From Azoarcus sp. (lineage in GTDB: Bacteria > Pseudomonadota > Gammaproteobacteria > Burkholderiales > Rhodocyclaceae), in the NCBI GenBank assembly GCA_030656215.1, contig JAUSOD010000070.1, positions 248,001 through 312,000 on the forward strand: 64,000 nt of DNA, written 5' to 3'. A model generated the notes under the pieces. The model saw nothing but the letters and a program-made list of their open reading frames with translations. It was not told where the DNA came from and made no database searches. Each line of letters begins with the position of its first letter. Within the stretch, counting starts at the first letter, position 1. This document shows positions 1,719-3,450 of this stretch, in pieces. Position numbers and translations under genes: made by a program.

Positions 1719-2630
1719 TCAGTTTCCTTCCAGTTTGAATATGATTGGGACCAACACCGAGGCTTCGATGGCACGCTCGCCCTGGCGCGCAGGAACGAAC
1801 CGCCAGCGTGACACCGCATTGCGCGCCGCTTCGTCAAGGCGTTCGGAACCCGAGCTGCGGGCCGTTTCGATGCGGCCGGGGAGCCCGTCCGGTTTGACCA
1901 CGACGCGCAGCATCACCTTGCCTTCTTCGCGCATACGGCGCGATAGCGGTGGGTAGGCTGGAGCCGGGTTGTTGAGATAGTCGGCATCGAAGCGGGCAGC
2001 GCTGACGGCTGCGGGCGCTGGCGCGGCGGGGCCGGTGTCTGCGGCTATCGGCTGTGCCGGTGCCATCGGAGCAGGGGCCGGTGCCGGCTCGGGCTCTGCG
2101 CTGGAAAGTGCGGTCGCGGACTGGGTGAGTACCGGTTCGGCCGGCTTCGGCGGGGCCGCTTTGGGCGGGGGAGGTCGTTTGACCGGCTGCGGCTTGGGGG
2201 GGGCGGGCTTCTGGACCGGTATCGGTATCGGGGGCGGCGGCGCAGGGGGCTGCACCTCCGGCTGGGGGGGGGCTGCCTGCGGAATGAAGGAAACCTCGAT
2301 CGGGCGGATCTCCGGCGGTGTCGCCGTCCGGGTGCCCAGATACGTCAGGGCCAAGCCACCCGTGGCGTGCAGGGCCACCACCAGCAGCAGCACGATTGCG
2401 CGCCGCCCAAGGGTGTTCTTCGGTGCCCCGGCGCTCCGGCTGATGAGGGGCTGCACATCTGCGCGACGGGGCTGGGCGGGCGGGAGTCTGTCCATGAACG
2501 GGGCCGCAGGCAGCGGGAGTGCGGTGGAGGCAGCGTGCATTGTATGAAGGTTTGGGGTCGGAATCGCGTTCTTGGGGTCTGCAGTCAGACGACTATCAGT
2601 GGGTTCAGGGACGGCCAGCAGCGGGTTCAT
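1719..2630 (-). CDS. tonB: Energy transducer TonB
   Basis: A TonB protein spanning the periplasm to deliver energy to TonB-dependent receptors. A cytoplasmic N-terminus, one transmembrane helix (about residues 77-97, RRAIVLLLVVALHATGGLAL), and a long Pro/Ala/Lys-rich periplasmic linker with PPAPPPPIPIPVQKP-like repeats are followed by the C-terminal domain (YLNNPAPAYPPLSRRMREEG ... SGSERLDEAARNAV). That domain carries the family YP and SG motifs. The ORF track start gives 303 residues with an unusually long N-terminal tail; an internal ATG at codon 31 (MHAAS) would give 273. Neither start has a clear Shine-Dalgarno sequence, so the start is uncertain. It heads tonB-exbB-exbD. Confidence 0.93.
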   Translation of the reverse strand: MNPLLAVPEPTDSRLTADPKNAIPTPNLHTMHAASTALPLPAAPFMDRLPPAQPRRADVQPLISRSAGAPKNTLGRRAIVLLLVVALHATGGLALTYLGTRTATPPEIRPIEVSFIPQAAPPQPEVQPPAPPPPIPIPVQKPAPPKPQPVKRPPPPKAAPPKPAEPVLTQSATALSSAEPEPAPAPAPMAPAQPIAADTGPAAPAPAAVSAARFDADYLNNPAPAYPPLSRRMREEGKVMLRVVVKPDGLPGRIETARSSGSERLDEAARNAVSRWRFVPARQGERAIEASVLVPIIFKLEGN

Positions 2631-2657: not shown

Positions 2658-2801
2658 TCACAGGCTTGCCGAACCGATCATCGTGTACAGCAGCATGGCC
2701 GCCGCGATCAGGTAGAGCGCTAGCCGCTTTGTCTGGAAGATCGGTCGGGGACCAAGGTGCCGATCGGGTGCGGGCAGGTGTGGGGGCGGGACAAAGCGCA
2801 T
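2658..2801 (-). CDS. Small single-pass membrane protein in the iron operon, unknown function
   Basis: A 47-codon ORF too short for the ORF track, lying between the bacterioferritin remnant and tonB on the same strand. It starts MRFVPPPHLPAPD, has a Pro-rich cytoplasmic-like head with basic residues (FQTKRLALY), then one predicted membrane helix (LALYLIAAAMLLYTMIGSA). A GAGGAAA ribosome-binding stretch lies 11 bases upstream of the ATG, which is the main reason to believe it is translated. It ends 27 bases before tonB. I do not recognise a family. Its position suggests a role with heme/iron uptake or the TonB complex, but that is only inference. Confidence 0.55.
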   Translation of the reverse strand: MRFVPPPHLPAPDRHLGPRPIFQTKRLALYLIAAAMLLYTMIGSASL

Positions 2802-2847: not shown

Positions 2848-2958
2848 TCAGAATGCAGCGTGATCCATCCGCAAGCGCAGAAAATACGGATTGATTGCAG
2901 CCAGCTCGATGCTCAGTTGCCTGTTCAGGAACTGTATGACCTTCTTGTCGACTTTCAT
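2848..2958 (-). pseudogene. bfr: Truncated bacterioferritin (N-terminal 36 residues only)
   Basis: A 36-codon ORF (MKVDKKVIQFLNRQLSIEL ... INPYFLRLRM) matching the first helix of bacterioferritin, which typically begins MKGDxKVIxxLNxxLxxELxAINQYFLHARM. Glu18, a ferroxidase-centre ligand in Bfr, is in register. The reading frame stops right after the first 31 homologous residues (then DHAAF), and I see no continuation in any frame downstream. The other metal ligands, the heme Met52 and four-fifths of the four-helix bundle are missing. The start codon forms an ATGA overlap with the bfd stop, the classic bfd-bfr arrangement. It is either a decayed gene or a retained micropeptide. Confidence 0.75.
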
Positions 2959-3197
2959 GTTGCTTCCAGCGCAATGCGGTACGAGGCGCGTTGCACCGCA
3001 TTGGGTGCTGCAATCTCGCAGTCCGGTTTCGGCTCGCCGAGTGCAGCACGCAGGCAGTCTCGCGCACATACCGCGCACCGGCCGCATTCCTCGGTCACGC
3101 CCAGTTCCTCGCGCAGGTGGCGCAGGGTGGAGCTGCCATTGCGGACTGCGTCGCCGATGTGGCGCTCGGTCACTGCTTTGCAGACACAGACATACAT
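2955..3197 (-). CDS. bfd: Bacterioferritin-associated ferredoxin Bfd
   Basis: An 80-residue [2Fe-2S] protein of the Bfd/NifU-middle family. Four cysteines are arranged as CVC near the N-terminus (MYVCVCKAVTE) and CGRCAVC about 32 residues later, the BFD-like Fe-S ligand pattern. In known systems Bfd docks on bacterioferritin and passes electrons to release stored iron; it is made under iron starvation. Here its usual partner is reduced to a 36-codon remnant overlapping its stop codon, so a full-length Bfr must lie elsewhere or Bfd serves another role. It sits 40 bases downstream of hemP and probably shares its Fur-controlled transcript. Confidence 0.93.
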   Translation of the reverse strand: MYVCVCKAVTERHIGDAVRNGSSTLRHLREELGVTEECGRCAVCARDCLRAALGEPKPDCEIAAPNAVQRASYRIALEAT

Positions 3198-3237: not shown

Positions 3238-3450
3238 CTATTTGGTCAGGATCAGCTTCCCGGCACGGGTGGCACGCAAGATGTAGGCCACGCCCAAGTG
3301 ATTGATCGTGACGCTGGATCTGCCCTCAAGCAACTGGCTGCTTACAATCGCGTTTCCCGATGTTTCGGCTGGGAGCACGACTGCATCCGGCACCTCTGTT
3401 TGCCTGTTGGTGTCTGCAGGATAGCTGCCTTCAGCAGTCGAGTTGCTCAT
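3238..3450 (-). CDS. hemP: Hemin uptake protein HemP
   Basis: A 70-residue small protein of the HemP family. The conserved half is SSQLLEGRSSVTINHLGVAY and the C-terminal ILRATRAGKLILTK, which fits the usual pattern ending RLTRxGKLILTK. The first about 30 residues are a variable, hydrophilic extension. HemP is required or stimulatory for expression of heme uptake genes in several proteobacteria, and its mechanism is not well defined. It is the first gene of the minus-strand iron run, with a Fur-box-like sequence about 15 bases upstream of the start. No heme receptor gene is next to it here. Confidence 0.9.
   Translation of the reverse strand: MSNSTAEGSYPADTNRQTEVPDAVVLPAETSGNAIVSSQLLEGRSSVTINHLGVAYILRATRAGKLILTK

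Follow-up and report, generated by a model that had tools for sequence, protein, structure and literature searches.

Directly after bfd in the window, a 64,000-nt stretch of an Azoarcus sp. genome (a 113-contig draft), stands an open reading frame (ORF) of 36 codons that begins as a bacterioferritin (Bfr) and soon stops. Does it encode a small protein, or is it what remains of a lost gene? An earlier note on this DNA left the choice between a recently decayed bfr and a retained micropeptide. The explanation held here with high confidence is that a single internal deletion has left the ORF as a bfr pseudogene, a redundant bfr having been lost in a lineage that relies on an unlinked pair of bfr genes.

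Identity and genomic position of the 36-codon ORF

The ORF (2848-2958, minus strand) encodes MKVDKKVIQFLNRQLSIELAAINPYFLRLRMDHAAF (36 aa). It lies in a minus-strand series of hemP, bfd, the 36-codon ORF, a 47-aa ORF, tonB, exbB and exbD, which a fur-like gene faces (Table 1). Its start codon and the bfd stop overlap in the sequence ATGA, and Glu18 falls in the Bfr register, just as the earlier note had described.

The ORF matches positions 1-32 of the NCBIfam bacterioferritin model TIGR00754 (E = 1e-7), its best match among solved bacterioferritins has E = 1.6e-7, and the match to a congener genome reaches E = 1.6e-10; bacterioferritin homology is thus not a matter of chance. Its TIGR00754 score of 32.1 bits is below the curated cut-off (125.55 bits) and so below the level of a functional bacterioferritin, against 250.1 bits for the congener gene and 218.3 and 155.9 bits for a tandem pair on another contig (C85). 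Pfam gave no match, for which the small size of the ORF is presumably the reason. A plasmid search with the locus returned no match, a promoter scan of the locus found no promoter-like site, and a terminator scan found one terminator-like site, on the plus strand, within chance expectation.

Table 1. Positions in the window of the bfr remnant and its neighbours
Feature	Position	Strand	Evidence
bfr first 31 codons (helix A), 5' part of the deleted gene	2866..2958	-	tblastn to three congeners, bfr N-terminus 77-84% identical; TIGR00754 positions 1-32
Deletion junction GATG, codon 31 ATG fused with codon 154 ATG	2866..2869	-	Alignment with G001/G002
bfr last five codons and stop, DHAAF (relatives DHASS)	2848..2865	-	G001-G003 tail QMDHASS-stop
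Former bfr ribosome-binding site inside bfd, GGAAG	2963..2967	-	Comparison with GGAGG of relatives
bfd, intact, 80 aa, [2Fe-2S] BFD domain	2955..3197	-	PF04324, E = 1.3e-8
hemP, first gene of the conserved hemP-bfd-bfr-tonB-exbB-exbD order	3238..3450	-	PF10636, E = 3.3e-15; synteny
Conserved 47-aa small ORF, hydrophobic C-terminal half, directly after bfr	2658..2801	-	Homologues in G001-G004
tonB	1719..2630	-	PF03544, E = 5e-22

The deletion and the state of the remnant

Three genomes of the same genus (G001, G002 and G003) have, in the same syntenic place, a bfr of 159 codons whose start likewise overlaps the bfd stop as ATGA. Their gene order, hemP-bfd-bfr-smallORF-tonB-exbB-exbD, is kept in the window, and the flanking order is conserved as well, including the homologues, upstream, of the ORFs of 835 and 396 aa in the window. 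Full-length bfr of 158-159 aa occupies this place in G030 and Azoarcus sp. TTM-91 too. For a pseudogene, one expects close relatives to have the orthologue intact at the syntenic position, and G001, G002, G003 and G030 do. The earlier note had named full-length bfr here in related strains as the finding that would tell against its proposal; the genes of G001-G003, G030 and TTM-91 are such a finding, and while they speak against the micropeptide, they bear out the other alternative, the decayed bfr.

The end of the ORF is equally informative. Bfr of G001-G003 ends in ...QSQMDHASS or ...QTQMDHASS, and the last residues of the window ORF are ...LRMDHAAF; in the DNA, GATGGATCACGCTGCATTCTGA of the window and GATGGATCACGCTTCATCCTGA of G002 match at 20 of 22 bases, counted by eye. 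Because the five residues after Met31 and the stop match the C-terminus of the congener gene, this is a gene with its middle removed and not an N-terminus joined to unrelated sequence. The abrupt stop after about 31 homologous residues, as first described, therefore needs rewording: the first 31 residues are genuine bacterioferritin, but DHAAF and the stop are the original bfr C-terminus.

Exactly 123 codons are missing from the window (480 - 111 = 369 nt; codons 31-153), in frame. The alignment with G001/G002 shows CGGATGTACAAG at the head, CAGATGGATCAC at the tail and CGGATGGATCAC in the window. The junction DNA of the window is CGGATG followed by GATCACGCTGCATTCTGA, and G002 has CGGATGTACAAG at codon 31 and CAGATGGATCACGCTTCATCCTGA at the gene end. 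The joint falls in a shared 4-nt GATG repeat, which takes the ATG of codon 31 to that of codon 154, so the disabling lesion can be identified as a 369-nt internal deletion with GATG at its joint. The 3' side is undisturbed, since a homologue of the 47-aa ORF directly follows bfr in G001-G003, and bfd in a fourth congener, G004. The scar resembles known bacterial gene inactivation between short direct repeats in its single deletion, the microhomology at the joint and a functional replacement elsewhere; it differs in that the deletion happens to stay in frame.

Compared with the bfd-linked Bfr of Parazoarcus/Azoarcus and relatives (TIGR00754; PF00210), the scar keeps the first 31 and the last 5-6 codons, the operon position and the ATGA overlap. 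The 123 codons that it lacks hold heme ligand Met52, the Bfd-docking residues Leu68 and Glu81, helices B-D and every ferroxidase ligand except Glu18. Among the ligands of a functional Bfr (Glu18, Glu51, His54, Glu94, Glu127, His130 and heme Met52, in the numbering of E. coli Bfr), only Glu18 is left.

Constraint on the rest also appears relaxed. The remnant has V3, A20, P24, R28 and L29, residues found at these positions in 0 of 56 intact bfd-linked Bfrs, and positions 3, 24 and 28 are invariant across the 56 (the change at 24 is Q24P). A leave-one-out comparison of 49 distinct intact sequences gave these 0-2 private residues each and the window five. A coarser measure, the number of highly conserved columns departed from, is three for the window, which equals the intact extreme, reached by one intact sequence. 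The ratio of nonsynonymous to synonymous change (dN/dS, Nei-Gojobori) against G002/G001 is about 0.10-0.19, a figure that covers 31 codons and is supportive only, and intact pairs lie mostly at 0.03-0.11. In this comparison, which the earlier note had proposed, the ratio is below 1 and modestly raised. A rise so modest implies that most of the history of the remnant was under selection and points to a recent deletion. The ribosome-binding site is GGAAG in the window vs GGAGG, at the same spacing, in 7 of 8 relatives with the same ATGA overlap; the eighth (L031) has AGGAG further upstream.

Several observations count against a pseudogene: the frame stayed open, dN/dS rose only modestly, the conserved-column count is at the intact extreme, and the family-wide association described below ignores kinship. 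The frame owes its openness solely to a deletion length that by chance is divisible by three, and a third of deletions would stay in frame.

Alternative readings of the short frame

A retained micropeptide would be a helix-A peptide, made through translational coupling to bfd, that binds Bfr subunits or Bfd and tunes iron release. It could draw on the open frame, the kept ATGA overlap, the presence of Glu18 with most of helix A and a dN/dS still below 1, but we judge it very improbable. The congeners carry the full-length gene, and the N-terminal matches listed in other relatives, near bfd or away from it, all lie in frames of full Bfr length. No other short version of bfr was found among 60 other relative genomes or loci next to bfd, and so no conserved length of a short form either; the search for such an ORF after bfd, suggested earlier, came back empty in the genomes examined. 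The remnant has five residues unseen in intact Bfrs, among them a proline at 24 inside helix A and Arg28, both in columns invariant in the 56; its ribosome-binding site is weakened, and it holds no Bfd-contact or ferroxidase residues beyond Glu18. As for the description of the frame as still coupled to bfd, the overlap is there, but it is inherited, being the same in intact relatives. More doubtful yet is that the 36-residue peptide, in this species only and after the deletion, came to bind C85 Bfr subunits or Bfd as a small partner.

An assembly or sequencing artefact, with full-length bfr here in the real genome, would fit an exact, in-frame deletion bounded by a short repeat in a draft of many contigs. 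A 4-nt repeat is not normally collapsed in assembly, however, the flanking codons have substitutions that no intact gene shows, the genome has a bfr pair that replaces the lost gene, and a congener with the pair has also lost bfr; the chance of an artefact is accordingly minimal. It is just as hard to credit that the short frame is kept as a regulatory leftover, a translated spacer that only couples bfd to the downstream small ORF and tonB. Gene order and the small ORF are indeed kept, but, as in relatives, non-coding sequence separates the scar stop from the small ORF, and G004 has no scar at all. The pseudogene thus remains the preferred reading, and any peptide from the 36-codon frame would be non-functional. 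A literature search on truncated bacterioferritin or bfr pseudogenes returned nothing relevant by title and abstract.

The unlinked bacterioferritin pair and the family-wide pattern

Two adjacent full-length bfr genes lie on another contig of the same genome (C85:1162-2129). Counted on the printed sequences, the heme-type product combines Met52, Leu68 and Glu81 with a degenerate ferroxidase site, in which positions 51 and 54 are Val and Glu; the ferroxidase-type product has Glu51 and His54, but Arg52 in place of Met52. Such a tandem of a Met52 subunit with a degenerate ferroxidase site and a ferroxidase subunit without Met52 is the mark of a heteropolymeric pair. In Magnetospirillum gryphiswaldense, the same division of labour between Bfr1 and Bfr2 has been shown experimentally, Met52 being the heme ligand (PMC6529640). 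The C85 pair is split in the same way; it differs in being a separate intact locus of which the window scar is no part. By analogy, it may assemble as a heteropolymeric Bfr. Bfd contacts Leu68 and Glu81 of Bfr (PMC13136788), and the retained Bfd would dock on the heme subunit of the pair, which the kept bfd probably serves.

With a two-subunit bacterioferritin elsewhere in the genome, the fragment very probably represents a dead gene rather than a new mini-protein. The deletion was most likely tolerated as the heteropolymeric pair does the work. The pair would have come first and made the bfd-linked bfr redundant; the deletion would have followed, by slippage or end-joining between short repeats.

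The pattern extends across the family. Among 103 family genomes with both bfr and bfd among the matches listed, 78 of the 82 in which no tandem pair was detected have bfr directly after bfd, vs 1 of the 21 with a pair (Fisher p = 2e-16, a statistic that ignores kinship), so that the two arrangements are nearly mutually exclusive. Two of the four exceptions without a detected pair (G121 and G215) resemble pair genomes, and their second copy perhaps lies outside the matches listed. Both states occur inside genera g1, g58, g61, g84 and g85, so the switch between them probably happened repeatedly. This near-perfect exclusion, seen with both states in no fewer than five genera, suggests that a cell can do with a single bacterioferritin system.

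The congener G004 has the tandem pair and no bfr after bfd at all. At its locus (L150 4687-5028) bfr is wholly gone and the C-terminus of bfd is shortened, a loss unlike that in the window. A tree of five proteins of the locus groups G004 with G001-G003 at 75% support, and the window genome is not firmly placed with G004. The different scars suggest that the two losses are independent.

No other bfr scar after bfd was seen in the pair-bearing genomes examined, and the window holds the only intermediate seen. The scar is ordinary but clean; it captures the step at which a single bfd-linked bfr was dropped and bfd kept, in a lineage with an unlinked two-subunit bacterioferritin. Natural species pairs are thereby at hand in which a role of Bfd at the heme subunit of heteropolymeric Bfr can be tested.

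Other arrangements also occur. In seven pair-bearing genomes (G167, G171, G184, G197, G203, G211 and G220) bfd stands directly after the pair and not before a single bfr, so it has changed place relative to bfr. Only in G202 (C59:14592-15972), of all genomes surveyed, do two tandem bfr genes follow bfd. Their identity to the congener Bfr is 77% and 53%, and the arrangement may represent an intermediate stage in how the pair arose.

The 47-aa ORF before tonB, which begins MRFVPPPHLPAP, has homologues of 47-51 aa in the corresponding position of each of the five genomes of the genus compared and no match in Pfam or NCBIfam; it is a conserved, unnamed small membrane-type protein of TonB loci. Between it and tonB lies a perfect inverted repeat, ATGCAA-GTTTA-TTGCAT (2633-2649), a candidate operator that is possibly Fur-like.
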